64,000 nt of DNA, from NCBI GenBank assembly GCA_029289265.1, contig JARFTX010000007.1, forward strand, positions 1 to 64,000, given 5' to 3'. Source of the DNA: Gammaproteobacteria bacterium. Its GTDB lineage: Bacteria; Pseudomonadota; Gammaproteobacteria; Burkholderiales; Rhodocyclaceae. The position numbers and the translations under genes are program-made. Shown here one piece after another: positions 14,097-53,908 of the stretch. Position 1 is the stretch's first letter; the number at the start of each line of letters is the position of its first letter. Under the pieces are notes generated by a model that had not been told where the DNA came from, did no database searches, and saw only the letters and a list, made by a program, of their open reading frames with translations.

Positions 14097-14708
14097 CTAC
14101 CAACGTTTGTCCGGGGCCGTATCCAGCAGCGGCCGCAAGCGTTCCGAAATGGCCTCTCTGGCCCGAAAGATTCGTGATCGAACCGTTCCGATGGGGCAAT
14201 CCATGATATTGGCGATTTCTTCGTAGCTGAGTCCTTCGAGTTCTCGGAGCATGATCGCCGTTCTCAATTCCTCGGGGAGCGCCGCCATCGCTTCATCGAC
14301 GGTCTCTCCAATCTGTCGCGTCATCAGTAGCCGTTCGGGCGTGTTGTTGTCACGCAACTGCTCGCCATCCTCGAGCGTCTCGGCCTCCTGCGCATCGAAC
14401 CCCGTCGTCGTAGGCGCGCGCCGCCCCTGTGACACCAGGTAGTTCTTTGCGGTATTGATGCCGATCCGGTACAGCCATGTATAAAACGCACTCTCGCCAC
14501 GGAACGCGCTCAGGGCACGATAAGCCTTGATGAACGTCTCCTGCGCGACATCCTCCACCTCGGCCGGATCGCGGATCAGGCGCGAAAGCAGTCTTTGCAG
14601 CTTGCGCTGGTACTTGGAGACCAGCAAGCCGAAAGCCTGCTTGTCGCCGCGCTGAACGCGTTCGACAAGTTGCCGATCAATCTCGCGATCGCTCATGAGC
14701 GGGTGCAT
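14097..14708 (-). CDS. rpoE: RNA polymerase sigma-E factor
   Basis: Extracytoplasmic-function sigma factor controlling the envelope stress response. The 203-residue protein contains region 2 (QAFGLLVSKYQRKLQRLL, then DVAQETFIKAYRAL, FYTWLYRIGINTAKN) and region 4 with helix-turn-helix (LSYEEIANIMDCPIGTVRSRIFRARE). It heads the rseA-rseB-rseC-mucD chain, so the sigma factor, its two brakes and a main protease are made together. An ATG four codons downstream is a possible alternative start. Confidence 0.97.
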   Translation of the reverse strand: MHPLMSDREIDRQLVERVQRGDKQAFGLLVSKYQRKLQRLLSRLIRDPAEVEDVAQETFIKAYRALSAFRGESAFYTWLYRIGINTAKNYLVSQGRRAPTTTGFDAQEAETLEDGEQLRDNNTPERLLMTRQIGETVDEAMAALPEELRTAIMLRELEGLSYEEIANIMDCPIGTVRSRIFRAREAISERLRPLLDTAPDKRW

Positions 14709-14734
14709 TCTCTATGGAGGGCAAAAACCGCGCC

Positions 14735-14763
14735 AGTATAGCGATCCGCAAGACTTACGGCAA
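14735..14763 (-). promoter_or_regulatory. Sigma-70 promoter for the rpoE operon
   Basis: On the minus strand TTGCCG (14763-14758) and TATACT (14740-14735) are separated by exactly 17 bases. The predicted start of transcription is near 14728, giving a leader of about 20 bases before the rpoE ATG. A basal vegetative promoter would be expected in addition to any sigma-E promoter. Confidence 0.65.
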
Positions 14764-36635: not shown

Positions 36636-39059
36636 TCAGTGCTCGCCGCGCCGCCTGTTCCGCCCGCCGCGCCCCTCCGACGCATAAGCATGGGCGGCGC
36701 TGGTCATCGCGGCCAGCGTCGCGGCGACCTTGTGATTGATGGTGCCCTTGGGGGTACGGCCCTTGGCGTCGGGCGTGCCGGCCTCGAGGCCGGTCAGGAT
36801 CGTCATCGCCTGGTCGACGTTGGCCACCGCCCAGACGTGGAACTGTCCACGGCGGGCTGCCTCGACGACGTCGGCGCGCAGCATCAGGTGGCGGACGCTG
36901 GCGGTGGGGATCACGACGCCCTGCTCGCCGGTGAGGCCGCGTGCGGCGCACAGGTCGAAGAAGCCCTCGATCTTCTCGTTCACGCCGCCGACCGCCTGCG
37001 CCTCGCCGAACTGGTTGACCGAACCGGTCACGGCGATCGACTGGCGGATCGGCACCTCGGCGAGCGCCGAGAGCAGCGCGCACAGCTCGGCGAGCGAGGC
37101 CGAGTCGCCTTCGACCGGGGTGTAGGACTGCTCGAACACCAGGCTCGCCGACAGCGACAGCGGCTGGTGCCGCGCGTACCGGGCGGCGAGGAAGGCTGAA
37201 AGAATCAGCACGCCCTTGGAGTGGATCGCGCCGCCGAGCTCGATCTCGCGCTCGATGTCGACGACGTCGCCGTCGCCCAGGCGGGCGGTCGCAGAGATCC
37301 GCACCGGGTGGCCGAACAATGCGCTGGCGAGTTCGACCACGACGAGCGCATTGATCTGCCCGGCGCGCGCACCGTCGGTCGAGATCATCACGGTGCCGTC
37401 GAGCATGGATTCGAGCACCCGTTCGGAGTAGCGGCCGAAGCGGCGCGTGCGGGCGGCGATGGCGAGGTCGATCTCGGTCGCACCGATGGCGGCGAGGCCG
37501 GCGGCACGGGCGTGAAAGTCCGCTTCGCGCATCAGGTCGGCGAGCAGGCGCGTATGCAGGGACACGCGGCCGGCGTCCTCGGCGATGCGCGCGCCCTGCT
37601 CGACCATGCGCGCCACGGCGCCACGATCGAGCGGCAGCAGGCCGGCGGCGCGCGCCAGCTTGGCCATGAGGCACGCGAACTCGAGCACGTTGTCGTCGGT
37701 ACGCGGCAAGTCGTCGTCGAAGTCCGCGGCGACCTTGAAGAGTTCGGGGAAGTCCGGATCGATCTCGGTCAGCGCGTAGAACGTCTCGCGATCGCCGATC
37801 AGCACCACCTTGACATCGAGCGGCACCGCATCCGGCGCAAGCGTCACGGTCGGGCTCCAACCCTGGGTCTCGGCCGGCGGCTCGATGCGGATCTCGCCGC
37901 TGCGCAGCGCGCGCTTGAGTCCTTCCCAGGCGAAGGGCTGGCCGAGCAGGCGTTCGGCGTCGAGCAGCAGATAGCCGCCGCAGGCGCGGTGCAGCGCGCC
38001 GGCGCGAATCAGGTTGAAGTGGGTGACCAGCGTGCCCATGTGGGCGATGTGTTCGATACGGCCGATCAGGTTGCCGAACGCCGGGTTGTCCTCGCGGACC
38101 ACGGGCGCGCCGAGGGTCTCGGCGTGGCCGACGAGGAGGTTCAGCTCGTAGCGCTGGAACCGCGACCGCGCCTCCTCGCCCGCGCCCTCGTCGTCCTCCT
38201 CATCGACGGCACTGCGCCCCGTGGCCACGCCTTCGAGCACATCGCGCTCGATGCGGGTCAGGAAGTCGAGAACCTGCGGCAGATCGGCGAAGCGCTCGCG
38301 CGGACCTAGCAGCAGGTGGGCGATGGCCGGTGACAGGGCGTCGCGTTCGGCGCGCTCGATCGCTTCGCGCAAGGCCTTGCGCCACCCGGGAAATTCGTCG
38401 AGCAGATCGGCGAGCCGGTCGCTCCAACGCTCGACCGCGGCTTCGACCGCGTCGCGCTCGGCCTGCGGGAGCGCATCGAAAGCCTCCGGCGACAGCGTTT
38501 CCTCTTCGCGCGTGGGGGCGAACACGAATCCGTCGGCTGTGCGCAAGAGCGCAAGCCCTTCGGCCCCGCAGGCCTGACCCAGCTCGCGCAGGGCGCCTTC
38601 CTCGCGTGCCTTGTGCGCTTCGTTCAGGGACTCGATGCGGCTGCTGTGGAGTTCGCTTTCGAGCGCGGCGTCGATGGCCGGCCCGAGCTCGCGAATCAAG
38701 GTCTGCAGTTCGCCCTTGAGCGCGGCGCCGCGGCCGGCGGGCAGCGTCATCAGGCGTGGCTCGAGGGGGGCGTCGAAATTGTGCACGTAGCAAAGATCGG
38801 GCGGCACCGTGCCATCGGCGGCGAATTCGCGCAGCAGCCGCATCGCGGTCGCACGACGGCCGGTGCCGGACTCGCCGAGCACGAACACGTGGTATCCGGG
38901 CTGACGCATCGCCAGGCCGAAGCGCAACGCCTCCTCGGCGCGGGCCTGTCCGAGACCGCCCGGAACATCCGGCAATGCGACCGTGGTGTCGAAGTCGAAG
39001 GCATCGGGATCGCACCGATTCAGGAGGCGGTCGGCCGCGAGTGCTGCGGGTTGCACCAT
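36636..39059 (-). CDS. Lon-family (S16) protease with AAA_32-type ATPase domain
   Basis: An 807-residue protein of the YcbZ/LonB-like group rather than classical Lon: there is no N-terminal LAN domain. The ATPase region (about 1-480) has a Walker-A-like loop GESGTGRRATAM in which the usual Lys is replaced by Arg. A long, charged insertion lies at about 110-320. The S16 domain (about 560-760) carries the catalytic dyad Ser653 (EGDSASLA) and Lys696 (VNEKIEG). The C-terminus is basic (GGRNRRRGEH). ATG 39059 has GGAGA about 11 bases upstream. Substrates are unknown. The next gene on the plus strand, the subtilase, ends 72 bases away in convergent orientation. Confidence 0.9.
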   Translation of the reverse strand: MVQPAALAADRLLNRCDPDAFDFDTTVALPDVPGGLGQARAEEALRFGLAMRQPGYHVFVLGESGTGRRATAMRLLREFAADGTVPPDLCYVHNFDAPLEPRLMTLPAGRGAALKGELQTLIRELGPAIDAALESELHSSRIESLNEAHKAREEGALRELGQACGAEGLALLRTADGFVFAPTREEETLSPEAFDALPQAERDAVEAAVERWSDRLADLLDEFPGWRKALREAIERAERDALSPAIAHLLLGPRERFADLPQVLDFLTRIERDVLEGVATGRSAVDEEDDEGAGEEARSRFQRYELNLLVGHAETLGAPVVREDNPAFGNLIGRIEHIAHMGTLVTHFNLIRAGALHRACGGYLLLDAERLLGQPFAWEGLKRALRSGEIRIEPPAETQGWSPTVTLAPDAVPLDVKVVLIGDRETFYALTEIDPDFPELFKVAADFDDDLPRTDDNVLEFACLMAKLARAAGLLPLDRGAVARMVEQGARIAEDAGRVSLHTRLLADLMREADFHARAAGLAAIGATEIDLAIAARTRRFGRYSERVLESMLDGTVMISTDGARAGQINALVVVELASALFGHPVRISATARLGDGDVVDIEREIELGGAIHSKGVLILSAFLAARYARHQPLSLSASLVFEQSYTPVEGDSASLAELCALLSALAEVPIRQSIAVTGSVNQFGEAQAVGGVNEKIEGFFDLCAARGLTGEQGVVIPTASVRHLMLRADVVEAARRGQFHVWAVANVDQAMTILTGLEAGTPDAKGRTPKGTINHKVAATLAAMTSAAHAYASEGRGGRNRRRGEH

Positions 39060-39374
39060 GTTGTGTGTTGTTCTCCGGGTGCCGGGGCGAGACGTCGATG
39101 CGGGTCGAGGTGGCTCGGCGGGATTGTCGAATGGGCCGCGCCGACGCCGGCCTGCTCGCGCCGGGACCGGGACGGCGCCTTGCATGCGCTGGGCAGTGTG
39201 CCGATAATCGTAGCAGGAACCGGCCCGCGCCGCATGGGCGCAGGGTTAGTCCGGCTTGGCGATTCAGAACTGTAAAACACTGCGCGGTGCGAAACAGTGC
39301 CGCTTGCCTGCGGTCAATTACAAACCCGCACCGACACGGCAACATCGCGGCACAGCACAAGAGTGGGCGGCATC
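39060..39374. other. Divergent intergenic region between the Lon-like gene and moaA
   Basis: About 315 bases without a credible gene. It becomes AT-richer near 39260-39330, where moaA transcription may start, but I could not assign a promoter with good spacing. A loose inverted repeat CACTG/CAGTG lies near 39279-39300. I see no molybdate (ModE) palindrome and no fold I would call a molybdenum-cofactor riboswitch. Confidence 0.5.
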
Positions 39375-44635: not shown

Positions 44636-45811
44636 TCAATGGGGCGATGCCAGGAAGCGGCGCGCAAGCTCGACCCAATAGGCCGCGCCGACCGGGATGA
44701 TCTCGTCGTTGAAGTCGTAATGCGGGTTGTGCAGCGTGCAGCCGCCCTCGCCCGGGCCGTTGCCGATCCAGACGTAGCAGCCCGGCTTGTGCTGCAGGTA
44801 GAAGGCGAAGTCCTCCGCGCCCATGCTCGGCCGCATGTCGGCGGCGACGTGGTGGGCACCGACCAGCGTCGTGGCGACCGCCTGGCAGAGATCGGCCTCG
44901 GCGACCGTGTTGATCGTGGCCGGATAGCCACGCCGGTAGTCGAGCGCGATCTCCACGCCGTAGGCCGCGCCGATCCCGGCACAGATCTCGCCCAGCCGCG
45001 CCTCGATGCGGTCCTGCACGCCGGCGCTGAACGCCCGCACCGTGCCCGACAGGCGCACCCGGTCGGGAATCACGTTGTAGGCCTCGCCGGCGTTGAACAT
45101 CGTCACGGACACCACGGCGGGGTCGTGCGGATCGAGGGTGCGGCTCGCGATGGTCTGCACCGCCTGCACCAGCGCCGCCGCGGCCACCACCGGATCGATG
45201 CCGAGGTGGGGCATCGCCGCATGTGCCCCGTGGCCACGCACCTCGACGTCGAAGCGGTCGGCGCTCGCCATGGTCGGGCCGCGGTGCACGGCGAAGCTGC
45301 CGGCATCGAGGCCGGGCCAGTTGTGCATGCCGAAGATCGCCTCCATCGGAAAGCGCTCGAACAGCCCGTCGTCGATCATCGCCTGCGCGCCGCCGTCACC
45401 CTCCTCGGCCGGCTGGAAGACGAGATTCACGGTACCCTCGAAGTCGGCCGCCTGCGCCGCAAGCACCTCGGCCGCGCCGAGCAGCATCGTCGTGTGGCCG
45501 TCATGGCCGCAGGCGTGCATGCAGCCCGCGTGGCGCGAGCGGTGGGCGAAGGTGTTGTGCTCCTGGATCGGCAGCGCGTCCATGTCGGCGCGCAAGCCGA
45601 CCGCGCGCCCGCCCGGCCGGCCGCGCACGACACCGACGACGCCGGTGCGGCCGATGCCTCGGTGGGTTTCGATGCCGAGCGCCTCGAGCCGATCGGCGAC
45701 CAGCGCCGCGGTGCGATGCTCGGCGAACGAGAGTTCCGGGTGGGCGTGAATATCGCGGCGAATCTCCACGAGCTCGGCATGGCTGCGCCGCAGTGATTCG
45801 ATGACACTCAT
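44636..45811 (-). CDS. M20-family amidohydrolase (hippurate hydrolase/N-acyl-amino-acid deacylase type)
   Basis: A 391-residue metal-dependent amidase. It shows the metal-binding MHACGHDGHT (about 95-104), FQPAEEG with the catalytic Glu, a lid domain (about 180-290), and the C-terminal MGAEDFAFYL. Relatives cleave N-acyl amino acids, hippurate, indole-acetyl-amino acids or N-acetyl-diaminopimelate; the substrate is not fixed by sequence. ATG 45811 has GAGGAAG at good spacing. The promoter region is shared with the divergent transglutaminase/amidoligase operon, which handles amide bonds too, so a functional link is possible but unproven. Confidence 0.88.
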   Translation of the reverse strand: MSVIESLRRSHAELVEIRRDIHAHPELSFAEHRTAALVADRLEALGIETHRGIGRTGVVGVVRGRPGGRAVGLRADMDALPIQEHNTFAHRSRHAGCMHACGHDGHTTMLLGAAEVLAAQAADFEGTVNLVFQPAEEGDGGAQAMIDDGLFERFPMEAIFGMHNWPGLDAGSFAVHRGPTMASADRFDVEVRGHGAHAAMPHLGIDPVVAAAALVQAVQTIASRTLDPHDPAVVSVTMFNAGEAYNVIPDRVRLSGTVRAFSAGVQDRIEARLGEICAGIGAAYGVEIALDYRRGYPATINTVAEADLCQAVATTLVGAHHVAADMRPSMGAEDFAFYLQHKPGCYVWIGNGPGEGGCTLHNPHYDFNDEIIPVGAAYWVELARRFLASPH

Positions 45812-45850
45812 GATCGGCTTCCTCGATTGCAATTCGGATTCGATCGGATC

Positions 45851-45880
45851 AGTTTATCTGCGCCGGGCCGGTGCGTCGAA
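45851..45880 (-). promoter_or_regulatory. Candidate promoter of the M20 amidohydrolase gene
   Basis: Minus strand: TTCGAC (45880-45875), 18-base spacer, TAAACT (45856-45851); predicted start about 33 bases before the ATG. It begins only 11 bases from the first NtrC-like site on the other side. Confidence 0.4.
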
Positions 45881-45890
45881 TTCCCCCTGG

Positions 45891-45939
45891 TGTGCCAGGA
45901 CGGTGCGAACATGCCGCCGCGAAGCCCATGATTGGTGCA
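45891..45939 (+). promoter_or_regulatory. Two NtrC-like enhancer sites
   Basis: Two dyads related to TGCACY-N5-GGTGCA. Site 1 (45891-45907) has TGTGCC and GGTGCG around AGGAC. Site 2 (45923-45939) has AGCCCA and GGTGCA around TGATT. Each matches 9 of 12 defined positions. Their centres (45899 and 45931) are 32 bp apart, three helical turns, and about 142 and 110 bases before the predicted sigma-54 start. Confidence 0.6.
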
Positions 45940-46014
45940 GCGCAACCGGCGCCGTTGCCGGCGCAAGCCGCCGGCGACGGATACTGCGAGATGCGGCCGC
46001 AAGTCACGCCGACT

Positions 46015-46030
46015 TGGCGCGGGAATTGCT
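46015..46030 (+). promoter_or_regulatory. Sigma-54 promoter of the amidoligase operon
   Basis: TGGCGCGGGAATTGCT matches TGGCACG-N4-TTGCW at 11 of 12 positions. The invariant GG (46016-46017) and GC (46028-46029) are separated by exactly 10 bases. The predicted start is near 46041, 26 bases before the first gene. This class of promoter needs an enhancer-binding ATPase, for which the two upstream dyads are fitting sites. Confidence 0.75.
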
Positions 46031-46066
46031 GCATGCTGACAACGAGAGTCGAATCGAGGGTCGTTC

Positions 46067-49000
46067 ATGTCCATCCACGTTGCCCTGCACCACGTCACCC
46101 GCTACCGGTATGACCGCCCCGTTCGACTCGGCGCACAGGTCATCCGCCTGCGGCCGGCACCGCACAGCCGCACCCGCATCCTGAGCTACACGCTCAAGGT
46201 CGAACCGGCCGGCCACTTCATCAACTGGCAGCAGGATCCGCAATCGAACTATCTGGCGCGGCTGAACTTTCCAGAGCGCACCCGCGAGTTGTGCATCGAA
46301 GTCGATCTGGTCGCCGAGATGGCGGTCATCAACCCCTTCGACTTCTTTCTCGAGCCGTACGCCGAGCATTTTCCCTTCGACTACGAGGCCTGGCAGACGG
46401 ACGAGCTGGCCCCGTATTTCAAGAAGCTGCCGCTCACGCCCAGGTTCGCCGAGTACCTGAGCGGCATCGACGCCGGCGAGCGCCGTACGATCGACTTCCT
46501 GGTCGATCTCAACCGCGAGTTGTACGAGCACATCGCCTACCTGATCCGCCTCGAGCCGGGCGTCCAGTCGCCCGAGGAGACGCTGGAAAAGGCCTCCGGC
46601 TCGTGCCGCGATTCGGCCTGGCTGCTGGTTCAGCTCATGCGCCACCTGGGCCTCGCAGCACGCTTCGTGTCGGGCTACCTGATCCAGTTGAAGGCCGACC
46701 TCAAGTCGCTCGACGGCCCGTCCGGTCCCGAGGAAGACTTCACCGATCTGCACGCCTGGTGCGAGGTCTACCTGCCCGGTGCCGGCTGGATCGGCCTGGA
46801 CCCGACCTCGGGCCTCTTCGCAGGCGAGGGTCATATCCCGCTCGCCTGCGCCCCGGATCCCTTCTCGGCGGCGCCGATCTCGGGCGCCCTCGAGGAATGC
46901 GAGGTCGCGTTCGGCCACGAGATGAAGGTCACGCGCATCCTCGAAGCCCCGCGCGTGACCAAGCCCTACACCGACGCGCAGTGGCTGGCGATCGAGACGC
47001 TCGGCCACGACATCGATGCGCGCCTGAAGGCGATGGACGTGCGGCTCACCCAGGGCGGCGAGCCGACCTTCATCTCGCTCGACGATCCCGACGGCGAGGA
47101 ATGGAACACCACCGCAGTCGGCCCGAACAAGAAGAAGCTCGCGATCGACCTCTATCACCACCTGCGCAACAAGTGTGCGCCGCAGGGCCTGGTGCATTTC
47201 GGCCAGGGCAAGTGGTATCCGGGCGAACAACTGCCGCGCTGGTCGCTCGGCTGCTACTGGCGCCGGGACGGACAACCGCTGTGGCGCGACGCGGCGCTGA
47301 TCGCCGACGAGCGTCGTGGCGGCAGTGCCGATGCCGCTGCGGCGGGCGCCTTCCTGCGCGGCGTCGCGGACCGGCTCGGCCTGTCGGGCGAGCACATCTT
47401 CCCGGCCTACGAGGATGCCTTCTATTACCTCTGGCGGGAGCGGCGCCTGCCGTCGAACGTCGATCCCTTCGACTCGCGCCTCGACGATCCGCTCGAACGC
47501 GCTCGCCTGGCAAAGGTCTTCTCGCAAGGGCTCGACGAGGTGGTCGGTCACGTCCTGCCGGTCGACCGCGATGCCGCGACCGGGCGCTGGCAGTCCGGGC
47601 CTTGGTTCCTGCGCGACGAGCGCTGCTACCTGATCCCGGGCGACTCGCCGATGGGCTTCCGCCTGCCGCTCGATTCGCTCCCGTGGACCGCGCCGCACGA
47701 TTACCCATGGGTGCACCAGCCCGACCCGTTCGATCGCCGTGCGGATTTGCCCGCGCACTCGGCGCTGCGCCGGCACTTCGGCACCGAGGCCTGGCCGGCC
47801 ACGGGTGGTGCGCGCGGCGGGACGGCGCGCACCCTCCTGCCGTCGCGCAGCCATCCGACCGACGAAGCACGGAAACCGGCGAGCCACGAATCGGCCGCCT
47901 GGATCACCCGCACGGCGCTCTGCGCCCAGGCGCGCGAGGGCGTGCTCCACATCTTCATGCCGCCCACGCGCAGCGCCGAGGATTACCTGGCGCTGGTGGC
48001 CGCCATCGAGGACACGGCCGAGGCCCTCGGCCAGCCGGTGCTGCTCGAAGGCTACGAGCCGCCCTCCGACCCGCGGCTCAGCCACTTCCGCATCACGCCC
48101 GACCCGGGCGTCATCGAGGTCAACATCCACCCGGCAGCCGACTGGGACGCCCTGGTCGACCAGACCACCCATCTCTACGAAGTGGCGCGCGAATCCCGCC
48201 TCACCACCGAGAAGTTCATGCTCGACGGCCGACACACCGGCACCGGCGGCGGCAATCACTTCGTGCTCGGCGGTGCGACGCCGGCCGACTCGCCGTTCCT
48301 GCGCCGCCCAGACCTGCTGCGCAGCCTGATCGCGTACTGGCACAACCATCCGAGCCTCTCGTACCTGTTCTCGGGCCTCTTCATCGGCCCGACCTCGCAG
48401 GCGCCGCGCATCGACGAGGCCCGCAACGACTCGGTCCACGAGATCGAGTTCGCCTTCCGCGAGATCGATCGCCTGTGCCGGCCGGGTCAGGAGGTGCCGC
48501 CGTGGCTGGTCGACCGGCTGCTGCGCAACCTGCTGATCGACGTCACCGGCAACACGCATCGCGCCGAGTTCTGCATCGACAAGCTGTACTCGCCGGACGG
48601 CCCGGCCGGCCGACTGGGGCTGCTCGAGTTGCGCGCCTTCGAGATGCCGCCGCACGCGCGCATGAGCCTGACCCAGCAGCTGCTCCTGCGCGCGCTGGTG
48701 GCGCGTTTCTGGGAGCAGCCTTATGCACCGGAGCGGCTCGCGCGCTGGGGCACCGAGTTGCACGACCGCTACCTGCTGCCGCATTTCATCTGGCAGGACT
48801 TCGCCGATGTGATCGCCGAGACGCGCGAGGCCGGCATCCCGATGCGCGAGGAATGGTTCGCCCCGCATTTCGAGTTCCGCTTCCCGAAATACGGCGACTA
48901 CGCGGTGCGCGGGATCGAGCTGGAACTGCGCTCGGCGCTCGAGCCCTGGCACGTGATGGGCGAGGAAGGCGCAGCCGGCGGCACCGTGCGCTACGTCGAC

Positions 49001-49420
49001 TCGTCGCTCGAACGCCTGCAGGTAAAGGCCTCGGGCGTGCCCCCCGAGCGCTATCGCATCACCTGCAACGGCGTGCCGCTGCCCCTGCAACCGACCGGCA
49101 CCCAGGGCGAGTTTGTCGCCGGCGTGCGCTACCGGGCCTGGCAACCGCCCTCGTGCCTGCATCCGACGATCGGCGTGGACAGCCCGCTCGTGTTCGACAT
49201 CGTCGACACCTGGATGAACAAGAGCCTCGGCGGCTGCCAGTACCACGTCGCGCATCCGGGCGGGCGCAGCTTCGAGACGCTGCCGGTGAATGCCTTCGAG
49301 GCCGAGAGCCGGCGCCTCGCCCGTTTCTTCCGCATCGGCCACACCCCGGGCCGCCTCGAGGTCGGCACGCCGCGCGTGAATCCCGAGTTTCCCTTTACGC
49401 TGGATTTGCGCAATCATTGA
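46067..49420 (+). CDS. Transglutaminase-like protein with DUF2126 domain
   Basis: 1117 residues in two parts. The N-terminal part (about 1-300) is a transglutaminase-like cysteine peptidase fold with an N-terminal beta domain and the triad Cys180 (SGSCRDSAW), His229 (FTDLHAW) and Asp245 (GLDPTSG). The rest (about 305-1117) is DUF2126, with conserved RLTQGGEPTFISLDD and TGTGGGNHFVLGG. A C-terminal beta-rich region ends near SPLVFDIVDTW. No signal peptide is seen, so it acts in the cytoplasm. In many bacteria this protein is encoded with the circularly permuted ATP-grasp and alpha-E proteins found next to it. The set is thought, from comparative genomics, to make and trim or crosslink a peptide; its product is unknown. 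It is the first gene after the sigma-54 promoter. Confidence 0.93.
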   Translation: MSIHVALHHVTRYRYDRPVRLGAQVIRLRPAPHSRTRILSYTLKVEPAGHFINWQQDPQSNYLARLNFPERTRELCIEVDLVAEMAVINPFDFFLEPYAEHFPFDYEAWQTDELAPYFKKLPLTPRFAEYLSGIDAGERRTIDFLVDLNRELYEHIAYLIRLEPGVQSPEETLEKASGSCRDSAWLLVQLMRHLGLAARFVSGYLIQLKADLKSLDGPSGPEEDFTDLHAWCEVYLPGAGWIGLDPTSGLFAGEGHIPLACAPDPFSAAPISGALEECEVAFGHEMKVTRILEAPRVTKPYTDAQWLAIETLGHDIDARLKAMDVRLTQGGEPTFISLDDPDGEEWNTTAVGPNKKKLAIDLYHHLRNKCAPQGLVHFGQGKWYPGEQLPRWSLGCYWRRDGQPLWRDAALIADERRGGSADAAAAGAFLRGVADRLGLSGEHIFPAYEDAFYYLWRERRLPSNVDPFDSRLDDPLERARLAKVFSQGLDEVVGHVLPVDRDAATGRWQSGPWFLRDERCYLIPGDSPMGFRLPLDSLPWTAPHDYPWVHQPDPFDRRADLPAHSALRRHFGTEAWPATGGARGGTARTLLPSRSHPTDEARKPASHESAAWITRTALCAQAREGVLHIFMPPTRSAEDYLALVAAIEDTAEALGQPVLLEGYEPPSDPRLSHFRITPDPGVIEVNIHPAADWDALVDQTTHLYEVARESRLTTEKFMLDGRHTGTGGGNHFVLGGATPADSPFLRRPDLLRSLIAYWHNHPSLSYLFSGLFIGPTSQAPRIDEARNDSVHEIEFAFREIDRLCRPGQEVPPWLVDRLLRNLLIDVTGNTHRAEFCIDKLYSPDGPAGRLGLLELRAFEMPPHARMSLTQQLLLRALVARFWEQPYAPERLARWGTELHDRYLLPHFIWQDFADVIAETREAGIPMREEWFAPHFEFRFPKYGDYAVRGIELELRSALEPWHVMGEEGAAGGTVRYVDSSLERLQVKASGVPPERYRITCNGVPLPLQPTGTQGEFVAGVRYRAWQPPSCLHPTIGVDSPLVFDIVDTWMNKSLGGCQYHVAHPGGRSFETLPVNAFEAESRRLARFFRIGHTPGRLEVGTPRVNPEFPFTLDLRNH

Positions 49421-49471: not shown

Positions 49472-51976
49472 ATGCCCGCTGGCATTTTCGACACGTATCC
49501 GCTTGCCGCCGACCGTTTCGACGAGATGCTCGCCGAACGCGGCAAGGCCCGGCCGCACTGGCGGGGTCTGGTCGAACGCCTGCAGTCGCTTTCCGACCAG
49601 CTGCTCGATCGGCGCGCGGACTTCGTGCGCGATGCGATCGAGTCCGACGGCGTCACCTACAGCGTCCATGCCGACCCCAAGGGCACGAGCCGTCCATGGG
49701 AGCTCGACATGCTGCCGCTGGTCCTGGACGGCGACGAGTGGGAGCGGCTCGCCGCGGCGGTCGCGCAGCGCGCGCGGCTGCTCGACGCCATCATGGCCGA
49801 CCTCTACGGCCCCCAGGACCTGCTCCTCGAAGGTCTGCTCCCGCCGGCGCTGGTATTCGGGCAGCCCGGCTACAAGTGGCCCTGCCACGGCATCCGCCCG
49901 GCTTCGGGACGCTTCCTGCACCTCTACGCGGTCGACCTCGGCCGCTCGGCGGACGGTCGCTGGTGGGCGATCGGCGACCACACCCAGACCCCGTCGGGCG
50001 CGGGCTACGCGCTGCAGAATCGCATCATCGTCTCGCGCGCGTTTCCCGACACCTTCCGCAAGCTGCACGTCCAGACCTTGGCCGCCTTCTTTCGTGGCCT
50101 GCAGGAGAACCTCGCGCGCATGGCCCCGAGCGGGGGCGAGACGCCGCTGGTGGTGCTGCTCACCGCCGGCCCGTTCAGCGAAACCTATTTCGAGCACGCC
50201 TTCCTCGCCCGCTACCTGGGCTTTCCGCTGGTCGAAGGGCGGGACCTCACGGTCCGCGACGACACGGTCTATCTCAAGACGCTGCGCGGCCTGCGCCGCG
50301 TTCATGCCATCCTGCGCCGGCTCGACGACGACTATTGCGATCCGCTCGAACTGCGCTCCGATTCGGCGCTGGGCGTGCCGGGGCTTCTCGGGGCAGTCGC
50401 CGCAGGCCGGGTGCTGATCGCCAATGCGCTGGGCAGCGGGGTGCTCGAGAGCAGCGCGATCTTCGGCTTCCTGCCCGCAATCTCGGAGCGCCTCCTCGGG
50501 GAGCCGCTTGCCATCCCGTCGGTCGCGTCGTGGTGGTGCGGCGAGGCGCCTGCGCTCGAGTACGTGCTCGAGCATCTCGACGAATTGGTGATCAAGCCCG
50601 CCTTCGCCAGCATGCGCATGGCAAGCGTCTTCGGCCACACCCTTAAGGGCGAGGCGCGCCGGCAACTGGTTGAGTCGATCCGCGCGCAGCCGCACGCCTA
50701 TGTCGCCCAGGAATGGGTCAAGCTCTCGCAGGCGCCGGTGTGGACGGGCAGGGCCGAACGCCCCCTGGCATCGCGTTCGGTCGGGTTTCGGCTGCTTGCC
50801 GCGGCCACGCCCAACGGCTACGCGGTGATGCCGGGAGCGCTGGCACGCGCCGCACCGAGCAGCGGGGTCGAGGTGCTGACCATGCAGCGCGGCGGCTTGT
50901 CCAAGGACACCTGGGTGCGCGCGCGCGGACCGGTGCGGCGCGCCAGCCTGCTCAAGAAGCGCCTCGGGGTCATCGACCTGCTCTACACGGGCAGCGACAT
51001 CCCATCCCGGGTCGGCGAGAACCTGTTCTGGATGGGTCGGCACGCCGAGCGCACCGAGTCCTCGGCGCGATTGCTGCGCGCTGCGCTGTCGCGGGTCTCC
51101 GAGTCGCCCGAGGACTCCACCGCAGAGTTGGCCGGCCTGCTCGCGGCGGCGCGGCGCATCGGCGCAGTGCCCGACATCGACGCCCAAGGCGCGGCCGAGG
51201 CGCCGCCGCTGGCATCGCTCGAAGCGACGCTGCTCGCGGCGGTCTCGGACCTGCGACGCCCCGGCTCCGTCGCCGCCAACCTGCGCGCGCTCTCCGAAAA
51301 CGCCCTGCACGTCCGCGAACGGCTGTCGACCGACAACTGGCATGTGCTGAACCGCCTGGAACAGGCCTTGCACCCCGCCCCCGTCACGGTGGACCAGGCG
51401 CTGGCGGCGCTCGACCACGTGATGCTCAGTTGCATTTCGCTGGCCGGCTTCGCGCTCGACGACATGACGCGCGACGAGGGCTGGCGCTTCCTGATCTTCG
51501 GTCGCCGCATCGAACGCCTGGCCGGGTTGGCAGGGCTGATCGCCATGGTGCTGCAGGCCGACGAGGAAGAATGCGAGGAAATGCTGGAGTGGCTGCTCGA
51601 AGCCGCCAACTCCATCGTCACCTACCGGGCCCGCTACCGGCGCACGCCCGAGCTGCTTCCCGTCGTGCATCTGCTGGTGTTCGACACGTCCAACCCGCAT
51701 TCGGTGTGCTTCCAGCTGCATTCGCTCGAACGCTACATGCACCGCAGCGAGCAAGAGCTGGGGCATCCACCCTCGCCGCTGCTCACCGCGATCAGCGAGC
51801 GCCTGCGTCACTTCGACCTGACGCTCCTCGAAGCCGAGCACTGCGCACCGGGTCGCGCCGAACTCGCCGCCTTGCTCGCCGAGGCAGAGGAGACCGCCTA
51901 CGCGCTCTCCGACGACATGCATCGTCGCTTCTTCATCCACACCGCGAAACCGGCCGTCGTCGAGGTCGCGGCATGA
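49472..51976 (+). CDS. Circularly permuted ATP-grasp (DUF404) fused to alpha-E (DUF403) protein
   Basis: 834 residues joining two proteins that are separate genes in many bacteria. Part one (about 1-480) is the circularly permuted ATP-grasp type 2 domain, with the DPKGTSRPWELDMLPLVL motif near the start, WWAIGDHTQTPSGAGYAL, the basic ELVIKPAF and AYVAQEWVKLS. ATP-grasp enzymes form amide bonds through an acyl-phosphate. Part two (about 505-830) is the helical alpha-E domain with LFWMGRHAERTESSARLL and RRIERLAGLAG. The substrate is unknown; a peptide amidoligase role is a family-level inference. It overlaps the next gene's start by four bases. Confidence 0.93.
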   Translation: MPAGIFDTYPLAADRFDEMLAERGKARPHWRGLVERLQSLSDQLLDRRADFVRDAIESDGVTYSVHADPKGTSRPWELDMLPLVLDGDEWERLAAAVAQRARLLDAIMADLYGPQDLLLEGLLPPALVFGQPGYKWPCHGIRPASGRFLHLYAVDLGRSADGRWWAIGDHTQTPSGAGYALQNRIIVSRAFPDTFRKLHVQTLAAFFRGLQENLARMAPSGGETPLVVLLTAGPFSETYFEHAFLARYLGFPLVEGRDLTVRDDTVYLKTLRGLRRVHAILRRLDDDYCDPLELRSDSALGVPGLLGAVAAGRVLIANALGSGVLESSAIFGFLPAISERLLGEPLAIPSVASWWCGEAPALEYVLEHLDELVIKPAFASMRMASVFGHTLKGEARRQLVESIRAQPHAYVAQEWVKLSQAPVWTGRAERPLASRSVGFRLLAAATPNGYAVMPGALARAAPSSGVEVLTMQRGGLSKDTWVRARGPVRRASLLKKRLGVIDLLYTGSDIPSRVGENLFWMGRHAERTESSARLLRAALSRVSESPEDSTAELAGLLAAARRIGAVPDIDAQGAAEAPPLASLEATLLAAVSDLRRPGSVAANLRALSENALHVRERLSTDNWHVLNRLEQALHPAPVTVDQALAALDHVMLSCISLAGFALDDMTRDEGWRFLIFGRRIERLAGLAGLIAMVLQADEEECEEMLEWLLEAANSIVTYRARYRRTPELLPVVHLLVFDTSNPHSVCFQLHSLERYMHRSEQELGHPPSPLLTAISERLRHFDLTLLEAEHCAPGRAELAALLAEAEETAYALSDDMHRRFFIHTAKPAVVEVAA

Positions 51977-52941
51977 GGCGCATCCGCTATCACGTCCGCC
52001 ACGACACGCTGTATCGCTACGATCAACCGGTCGGAGAATCGCATCAACTGCTGCGTCTGTTGCCGCGTACGCTGGCCTGGCAGGAGTCGATCGCGCACAG
52101 CGTCGAGGTCTGTCCCGAGCCGTCACGCGCCAAGAACTTCGTCGATCCGTTCGGCAATCGCGTCCGCGCCCTGCATTTCGAAGCCGATCACGACGAGCTG
52201 TCAATCCGCTCCGAGGTCTGGATCGACCTGATGTCGCGGCCCATGCCCGATATGGCCGCCTCCCCGCCCTGGGACACCGTGCGCGAGTCGTTGCGCTACA
52301 AGGCCGGGCACAGCATTTCGCGCGAAATGCTCGAGGCCGCCACGTTCCGCTACGAATCGACCTATATCCGACTGAAGCGCGATTTCGCCGATTACGCCCG
52401 GGCGAGCTTTCCGCCCGGCACGCCCTTGCTGGTCGGCGTCGAGGCCCTGATGCGCCGCATCTTCGCCGAGTTCAAGTTCGAGCCCGGAGCCACTGACGTC
52501 TCCACCCCGGTCACGACGGTATTCACGAGCCGGCGCGGCGTCTGCCAGGACTTCGCGCATTTCATGATCTCGTGCCTGCGCTCGCTGGGGCTGCCCGCAC
52601 GCTACGTCAGCGGCTATCTGCTGACCCGGCCGGCCGCGGGCAAGAAGCGCCTGATCGGCGCCGACGCGACGCATGCCTGGGTGTCGGTGTTCTGCCCCGG
52701 CACGGGCTGGGTGGATTTCGACCCGACCAATGCCCTGCTGCCCGACCTGGAGCACATCACCATCGGCTGGGGCCGCGATTTCGGCGACATCTCGCCGGTG
52801 CGCGGGGTCATCATCGGAGGCGGCGGCCACGAGCCCGAGATCGCCGTCACGGTGGTGCCCGAGGACGAGTTCGCGTCCGTATACGGAGCCGCCGACGACC
52901 TGCCGTTCGAGCTGCGCCCGACCCCGGCCTGCAGCGCATGA
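51973..52941 (+). CDS. Transglutaminase-like protein, second copy (COG1305 type)
   Basis: A 322-residue cytoplasmic protein with the N-terminal beta domain (YHVRHDTLYRYDQPVGESHQ) and a transglutaminase core with Cys191 (RRGVCQDFAHF), His234 (ATHAWVSVF) and Asp250 (WVDFDPTN). It ends in the family's VVPEDEF-type tail. Related only in fold to the N-terminus of the first operon gene. It may act as a peptidase or acyltransferase on the product of the neighbouring amidoligase. The start overlaps the stop of the fused ATP-grasp gene (ATGA), so the two are translated together. Confidence 0.93.
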   Translation: MRRIRYHVRHDTLYRYDQPVGESHQLLRLLPRTLAWQESIAHSVEVCPEPSRAKNFVDPFGNRVRALHFEADHDELSIRSEVWIDLMSRPMPDMAASPPWDTVRESLRYKAGHSISREMLEAATFRYESTYIRLKRDFADYARASFPPGTPLLVGVEALMRRIFAEFKFEPGATDVSTPVTTVFTSRRGVCQDFAHFMISCLRSLGLPARYVSGYLLTRPAAGKKRLIGADATHAWVSVFCPGTGWVDFDPTNALLPDLEHITIGWGRDFGDISPVRGVIIGGGGHEPEIAVTVVPEDEFASVYGAADDLPFELRPTPACSA

Positions 52942-52972: not shown

Positions 52973-53908
52973 GTGAAGCTTTTCTACGCCGACCACTTCG
53001 TGCTGCCGCTGCCCGAAGGCCACCGTTTCCCGATGGAGAAATATGCGCGTCTGCGCGCGACGCTGGCGTCGAGTGGCCGCTTCGGCCCCGGGGATTTCCA
53101 TGTGCCGGCCGCGGCCAGCGACGACGAGCTGCTGCGCGCCCACGATGCCGACTATCTGCGTCGCGTCGTGGCCGGCGCGCTCGACGCCGCCGCGCAGCGG
53201 CGCATCGGCTTTCCCTGGTCGGCGGCGATGGTCGAGCGCTCGCGACGCTCGGCAGGCGCCACGCTCGCCGCCTGTCGCGCCGCGCTCGTCGAGGGATGCG
53301 CGGCCAACCTGGCCGGGGGCACTCATCATGCGCACCGCGACTTCGGCTCGGGCTTCTGCGTCTTCAACGACGCCGCGGTCGCCGCACTGGCGATGCGTGC
53401 CGAGGGCCGGGTGCAGCAGGTGGCGATCATCGACTGCGACGTCCACCAGGGCGACGGCACGGCGGCGATTCTCGCCAACGAGCCGGATCTCTTCACCTTC
53501 AGCATCCATGGCGCGCGGAATTTTCCGTTCCGCAAGGCCCGTTCGGACCTCGACATCGAGTTGCCGGACGGCACCCCCGACGAGGCTTATCTCGAAGCGC
53601 TCGCAGGCGGGCTGGACATCGTGTTCGTGCGCGTCGCGCCCGATCTGGTGATCTACCTCGCCGGCGCCGACCCCTACCGCGACGACCGCCTGGGGCGTCT
53701 CGCGCTCAGCATCGAGGGACTGGCACGGCGCGACCGTATGGTGCTAGACCAGTGCCGCGTGCGGGCCATCCCGGTCGCGATCGCCATGGCGGGTGGCTAT
53801 GCGCGCGACATCGGCGATACGGTGGCGATCCATGCCGCCACGATTCTCGCTGCGGCCGACCTGTGCGATGGCGCCGCCTGCAGCGCGACCGTGCGCAATC
53901 GCGCATGA
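52973..53908 (+). CDS. Histone deacetylase-family amidohydrolase
   Basis: A 311-residue zinc-dependent amidohydrolase of the HDAC/acetoin-utilisation/acetylpolyamine-amidohydrolase superfamily. It begins VKLFYADHFVLPLPEGHRFP, with the catalytic His pair in GGTHHAH (His118-119) and zinc ligands Asp156 and His158 in IDCDVHQGDGT. The third ligand Asp is in AGADPYRDD. The GTG start at 52973 keeps the conserved N-terminal strand; no good ribosome-binding site is seen, so it may be coupled to the gene 31 bases upstream. In bacteria these enzymes remove acyl groups from small amines or proteins. Its place at the end of the amidoligase operon suggests an acyl-amide substrate related to that pathway, but this is inference. 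Confidence 0.92.
   Translation: MKLFYADHFVLPLPEGHRFPMEKYARLRATLASSGRFGPGDFHVPAAASDDELLRAHDADYLRRVVAGALDAAAQRRIGFPWSAAMVERSRRSAGATLAACRAALVEGCAANLAGGTHHAHRDFGSGFCVFNDAAVAALAMRAEGRVQQVAIIDCDVHQGDGTAAILANEPDLFTFSIHGARNFPFRKARSDLDIELPDGTPDEAYLEALAGGLDIVFVRVAPDLVIYLAGADPYRDDRLGRLALSIEGLARRDRMVLDQCRVRAIPVAIAMAGGYARDIGDTVAIHAATILAAADLCDGAACSATVRNRA

Follow-up and report, generated by a model that had tools for sequence, protein, structure and literature searches.

The 255-bp intergenic region (45812-46066) between a divergent M20 amidohydrolase gene and a gene coding for a DUF2126 protein very probably harbors an NtrC-driven sigma-54 promoter in the window, as we term the whole 64,000-nucleotide stretch of Rhodocyclaceae DNA analyzed here, and comparison of sequences predicts that the operon headed by the DUF2126 gene is active under nitrogen limitation. 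Control by NtrC and sigma-54 is a textbook promoter type. The regulatory link itself is on record from expression work on a relative, discussed below, and the window is a well-supported example of it, not a new kind of system. What is added here is a third dyad, estimates of chance, the breadth of conservation, the placement of the promoter at the leader gene in two operon architectures and a motif recovered de novo.

Organization of the region

The features of the region are as follows, with dyad centers given relative to the predicted transcription start and dyad scores as matches out of 12 positions.

44636-45811, minus strand: M20 amidohydrolase, divergent (Pfam PF01546; TIGR01891 above cut-off)
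45859-45875: NtrC-type dyad 1, TGCGCCGGGCCGGTGCG, 10/12, center at -173
45891-45907: NtrC-type dyad 2, TGTGCCAGGACGGTGCG, 9/12, center at -141
45923-45939: NtrC-type dyad 3, AGCCCATGATTGGTGCA, 9/12, center at -109
46015-46030, plus strand: sigma-54 (-24/-12) promoter, TGGCGCGGGAATTGCT, 11/12 consensus positions, top score of the window, with orthologue sites in 65/84 loci (window included)
46040, plus strand: predicted transcription start (+1), from promoter geometry, the first G of GG being -24
46067-49420, plus strand: transglutaminase N, transglutaminase core and DUF2126 (putative amidoligase), 1117 aa, operon leader (Pfam PF08379, PF01841, PF09899)
49472-51976, plus strand: circularly permuted ATP-grasp fused to Alpha-E (Pfam PF14403, PF04174, PF04168)
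51973-52941, plus strand: second transglutaminase-like protein (Pfam PF08379, PF01841 on 51976-52938)
52973-53908, plus strand: histone-deacetylase-like protein (Pfam PF00850)

The ATG of the second transglutaminase gene overlaps the stop codon of the ATP-grasp/Alpha-E gene (ATGA; sequence 51966-51990). The histone-deacetylase-like gene, the start codon of which was chosen by hand, lies on the same strand 31 bp downstream of the second transglutaminase gene and is possibly the last gene of the operon. For the M20 gene the ATG at 45811 was chosen as start, an alternative TTG start being available at 45832, and dyad 1 sits 48 bp from this ATG. The same divergent neighbor adjoins the operon in loci L001 (the window genome), L004, L005, L024, L025 and L033 of the orthologue set described below. 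To our knowledge, the enzymes of the DUF2126/ATP-grasp/transglutaminase operon have no established substrate. PMC6376114 is consistent with this as far as the related Anbu operon is concerned. About 7 kb upstream (36636-39185, minus strand) is a gene for a LonB-like ATP-dependent protease, which is ordinary in itself.

The probable sigma-54 promoter

The site TGGCGCGGGAATTGCT departs from TGGCACG-N4-TTGCW at a single position, with its GG and GC elements at the exact spacing, and is the sole match in the window with at most one mismatch. Its weight-matrix score of 15.6 bits is the highest over both strands of the window (runner-up, 14.0 bits). A preliminary description of this DNA, which had placed a sigma-54 promoter with 11 of 12 consensus positions at 46015-46030, is thus borne out. 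With up to two mismatches allowed, the window holds only 5 matches where 10.7 would be expected. In the 3.76-Mb genome, the pattern TGGCRCG-N4-TTGCW, which was modeled on the window's own site, occurs only 10 times against 4 for its reversed control, and hence the sigma-54 string by itself is suggestive, not decisive; one of these 10 genomic sites lies directly before the gene preceding ntrC, presumably ntrB. From the geometry of the promoter, transcription would start at about 46040. The finding of no sigma-70-like match in 45500-46300 carries little weight, since merely 0.1 would be expected there.

A sigma-54 promoter facing the M20 gene was also considered and was rejected, the best score in that direction being only 5.5 bits. 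Elsewhere in the window, a weaker sigma-54-like match of 13.4 bits (14720-14735, minus strand) stops 12 bp short of the ATG of a gene (14097-14708) for an ECF-type sigma factor and probably reflects chance or a wrong start codon for that gene.

Three phased dyads upstream of the promoter

Candidate activator sites were scored against TGCACC-N5-GGTGCA (12 positions), with the limit of 9/12 taken from the preliminary description. Three dyads precede the promoter (TGCGCCGGGCCGGTGCG, TGTGCCAGGACGGTGCG and AGCCCATGATTGGTGCA), with a successive spacing of exactly 32 bp each. The dyads at 45891 and 45923 had been reported beforehand at 9/12 each and 32 bp apart, as rescoring confirms, but a third and better one (45859-45875, 10/12) had been overlooked. 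NtrC enhancers are recognized by upstream dyads of the GCACC-N5-GGTGC type, usually two or more, and the window has three.

The arrangement had been judged hard to obtain by chance. When 45829-46010 was shuffled 20,000 times with dinucleotides preserved, three or more dyads of 9/12 were observed in a fraction of 0.0002 of the shuffles, a pair of dyads exactly 32 bp apart in 0 of 20,000 and a pair 31-33 bp apart in a fraction of 0.00005. In addition, the window can be read as 63,319 further stretches of 182 bp, none of which contains three dyads. Three dyads together are unusual; taken singly, dyads mean nothing, being common in the GC-rich DNA of the window (128 with up to three mismatches, on both strands and for a pattern with Y, versus 113 expected). 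Better dyads, with at most one mismatch, occur at 21 places in the same genome.

Conservation of the promoter at the leader gene

The orthologue set consisted of 112 loci (L001-L112), made up of the window's own genome, the top-ranking matches found in 61 relatives and, out of 591 matches confirmed in named genomes, the best 80, and by this construction it leans to close orthologues; no further genome was found in the genus of the window organism. Eight loci were dropped at extraction, L002 and L003 as paralogues and L023 and L028-L032 for matches that did not start from the N-terminus. Of the 104 loci with a usable N-terminus, 18 were set aside as internal and two (L034 and L081) as too short, which left a leader set of 84 loci in which the DUF2126 gene comes first and has at least 200 bp upstream, the window genome (L001) being counted in the 84 as well as in the 69 and 50 loci mentioned below. 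The B. ambifaria locus (L091) is probably internal, as its contig is cut, yet it is counted as a negative in the leader set. In L012 and L023 the DUF2126 match contains one in-frame stop (TGA and TAG, respectively), which may reflect assembly error or decay. Alignments for viewing were made from 13 and 16 hand-chosen loci.

Using a threshold of 12 bits, which was fixed after the first scan and applied equally to the shuffles, a sigma-54 site is present within 250 bp of the DUF2126 gene in 65 of the 84 loci (window included), as compared to a mean of 1.55 and a maximum of 5 in 40 shuffles, and 43 of these 65 sites are located at -49 to -54. The positive loci comprise all 28 from Pseudomonas, 22 from other named genera and 15 of the 20 in the remaining group (window included). 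Because Pseudomonas supplies 28 of the 65 positives, a separate count was made on the 69 representatives that are left after removal of similar upstream regions, 50 of which carry the site (shuffles 1.1, maximum 3). Site-bearing loci outside Pseudomonas include Azoarcus indigens, Azonexus, Zoogloea, Thauera, Propionivibrio, Achromobacter, Hydrogenophaga and Polaromonas. Conversely, 19 of the 84 leader-gene orthologues have no 12-bit site, among them those of an Azoarcus MAG, Denitromonas, Accumulibacter, Herbaspirillum and Serratia. As regards individual loci, the 12-bit site is present in L004, L007, L008, L011, L016 and L027 and absent from L013, L017 and L019. L009, L014 and L017 show a degenerate match, the -24 element of which is altered, at -51, -52 and -61, respectively.

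In 18 loci (L015, L020-L022, L047, L054, L057, L060, L066, L068, L076, L088, L089, L095, L096, L106, L107 and L112) the DUF2126 gene is preceded by a second, diverged ATP-grasp/Alpha-E pair; a site directly before the DUF2126 gene is seen in none of the 18. The true leader was examined in 15 of them, with L066, L088 and L112 left out, and in 10 of these 15 a sigma-54 site lies no more than 300 bp from the ATP-grasp gene that comes first (0.29 on average in shuffles, at most 2); 7 of the 10 sites also have a dyad of at least 9/12 within 200 bp. The five alternative leaders without a site are L143 (8.9 bits), L068 (10.2) and all three of Marinobacter, L054 (11.7), L057 (1.7) and L060 (3.7). The site is therefore found at the start of the operon whichever gene leads it, as predicted for a working promoter and not for a chance match.

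The activator motif and the regulators of the genome

Within the 195 bp upstream of the sigma-54 sites of the 50 representatives, 44 dyads of at least 9/12 were identified, distributed over 32 of the 50 loci, versus a shuffle mean of 8.3 (maximum 17) and a single one for the reversed motif. At 10/12 or better there are 15 such dyads, with 0.85 in shuffles and 0 for the reversed motif. The remaining 18 of the 50 site-bearing representatives have no 9/12 dyad.

A de novo search, with no motif preselected, covered 1024 five-base half-sites at spacings of 0-15, that is, 16,384 inverted repeats, with up to one mismatch. GCACC-N5-GGTGC ranks first of the 16,384, being present in 19 of the 50 loci against 1.07 expected from 30 shuffles (z 11), and the next ranks are taken by shifted versions of the same palindrome. 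We take this palindrome to be of the NtrC type, in agreement with the dyads of E. coli glnA as read here.

The genome encodes one protein above both NCBIfam equivalog cut-offs for NtrC (TIGR01818, 703.4 bits with a cut-off of 558.6; NF008176, 654.8 bits with a cut-off of 620) and one RpoN. Besides this NtrC, it has 13 other matches of more than 280 bits to the NtrC model.

Comparison with glnAp2 and with other promoters of the genome

The preliminary description had likened the arrangement to that of E. coli glnAp2. Measured in the same way, glnAp2 of E. coli K-12 has dyads at -139 (11/12) and -107 (10/12), so that in both regions two dyads 32 bp apart stand at almost equal distances from a sigma-54 promoter (-141 and -109 in the window). 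The window differs in its third dyad at -173 and in that its dyads are weaker (10, 9 and 9 of 12). The comparison covers the dyads; E. coli glnAp2 also has low-affinity governor sites (PMC3870243).

The spacing and distance behind this likeness are real, but orthologues do not share the geometry. They do not keep a pair of dyads near -140 and -108, the commonest 10-bp bins of dyads of at least 9/12 among orthologues being -110 to -101 (9 dyads) and -80 to -71 (8 dyads), and dyad positions are not maintained in six aligned relatives. We therefore reject glnAp2 geometry as a conserved class, regard the exact correspondence as a resemblance and do not let it carry the argument. Enhancers are described as tolerating varied position (PMC7408454). 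Dyad spacings of 31-32 and 41-42 bp seem to recur in the orthologue set, an impression on which we base no claim.

Other nitrogen-related genes of the same genome were inspected for comparison, glnA and ntrB being recognized by sequence and by position beside ntrC, without a model. The genome's own glnA is preceded by a sigma-54 site and by dyads at -216 (8/12) and -185 (10/12), 31 bp apart. A weak control is provided by one amt match, with a site 583 bp before it and dyads nearby, and no site of 11.5 bits was found in the DNA examined before two urtA copies.

Published nitrogen regulation of related operons

PMC5491218 names I35_5080-83 of Burkholderia cenocepacia H111 (BCAM1233-1236) among common targets of sigma-54 and NtrC, with values of -8.2 for I35_5080 (DUF404/DUF407), -9.4 for 5081 (DUF403), -9.4 for 5082 (transglutaminase-like) and -6.0 for 5083 (large transglutaminase-like), rows that its text cites for the ntrC mutant and the value columns of which are reproduced here without their heads. 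The nitrogen link had previously been presented as undescribed for this gene set, which is incorrect in view of that report. The cluster resembles the operon of the window in that DUF404/407 corresponds to ATP-grasp and DUF403 to Alpha-E, accompanied by a transglutaminase-like and a large transglutaminase-like protein; from its order and name, the large I35_5083 protein would be the DUF2126 protein. It differs in that the ATP-grasp gene leads, whereas the operon of the window begins with the DUF2126 gene and has ATP-grasp and Alpha-E joined in one protein. The B. arboris locus of our set (L089) has the gene order of I35_5080-83 (ATP-grasp, Alpha-E, transglutaminase, DUF2126 protein) and carries a sigma-54 site and an 11/12 dyad before its first (ATP-grasp) gene.

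The claim of novelty is also contradicted by the Anbu operon of P. putida (PP_2685-2688), for which PMC7801951 describes induction under nitrogen limitation and a likely control through NtrB/NtrC. This operon comprises a related gene set, including a transglutaminase, and differs in containing the proteasome-like Anbu (PP_2685). Its induction, according to the same paper, is common to the wild type, a relA/spoT mutant and an rpoN mutant, and it hence offers no clean evidence for sigma-54 and misfits simple sigma-54 control. PP2685-2687 are listed as raised in PMC3325844, and PMC6376114 and PMC5666114 both refer, for the raised Anbu operon, to a single earlier study of P. putida, so that these two are not independent.

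Our searches of open-access papers turned up no account of cis-acting sites ahead of the DUF2126 operon, and the term DUF2126 is absent from the open-access papers searched. A word search of the main text of four papers on NtrC regulons and nitrogen gave no match for transglutaminase (PMC8443478, PMC5979394, PMC5748707 and PMC8467165), and none of the five terms sought occurs in the main text of a comparison of sigma-54 regulons (PMC12316311).

Alternative explanations

If the sigma-54-like string and the dyads were functionless and the operon depended on an ordinary sigma-70 promoter, one would expect what is seen for single dyads, which are no commoner than in shuffles (128 vs 113), and for the sigma-54 pattern in the genome, with just 10 occurrences vs 4. 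Such a chance match is nevertheless extremely improbable given that the sigma-54 site is conserved (65/84 vs 1.55), also before the alternative leader gene. Another possibility is that the sigma-54 promoter is genuine and a different enhancer-binding protein drives it in this organism, the dyads being degenerate remnants. The 13 further matches to the NtrC model in the genome, the window dyads of merely 9 to 10 of 12 and the 18 of 50 site-bearing representatives devoid of a 9/12 dyad would all fit a different activator, but the first rank of the NtrC-type palindrome in the de novo search, the low frequency by chance of three phased dyads (0.0002) and the NtrC dependence of the B. cenocepacia cluster, as published in PMC5491218, argue for NtrC itself, and we regard a different activator as quite improbable.

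The shared region might also regulate both the operon and the divergent M20 gene, with NtrC acting in both directions, a situation that would be compatible with an NtrC-driven sigma-54 promoter for the operon. The closeness of dyad 1 to the M20 ATG (only 48 bp) and the occurrence of the same divergent neighbor in the loci listed above speak for two-sided action, but the best sigma-54 score toward M20 (5.5 bits) means that NtrC could act there on a sigma-70 promoter only, and overall we consider such an arrangement rather unlikely. Even with no sigma-54 site directed toward it, the M20 amidohydrolase may be part of the same response to nitrogen.

Proposed mechanism and biological meaning

In the preferred reading, an NtrC-driven sigma-54 promoter for the operon, nitrogen limitation would lead NtrB to phosphorylate NtrC, and dimers of NtrC~P would bind the three dyads (45859-45939), which lie about three helical turns apart. 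Bound NtrC~P would then oligomerize, reach the sigma-54 RNA polymerase at 46015-46030 by DNA looping and bring about opening of the promoter, and the operon encoding DUF2126/transglutaminase, ATP-grasp/Alpha-E and transglutaminase would be transcribed from around 46040. The earlier proposal that nitrogen limitation turns on this operon is well supported by comparison with its relatives and stands, for the window organism, as a prediction from sequence.

More generally, it seems reasonably likely that control by NtrC and sigma-54 has long been conserved for the DUF2126/ATP-grasp/Alpha-E/transglutaminase system in the β- and γ-Proteobacteria. Since the promoter accompanies the first gene of the operon, whichever that is, the chemistry of the system would, in that reading, be part of the nitrogen-starvation response, as salvage or modification of peptide or protein amides, and not incidental to it. 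A conserved nitrogen-starvation switch would indicate the growth condition in which to seek the product of the operon, and it points to the strains and mutants suited to testing the question of its substrate.
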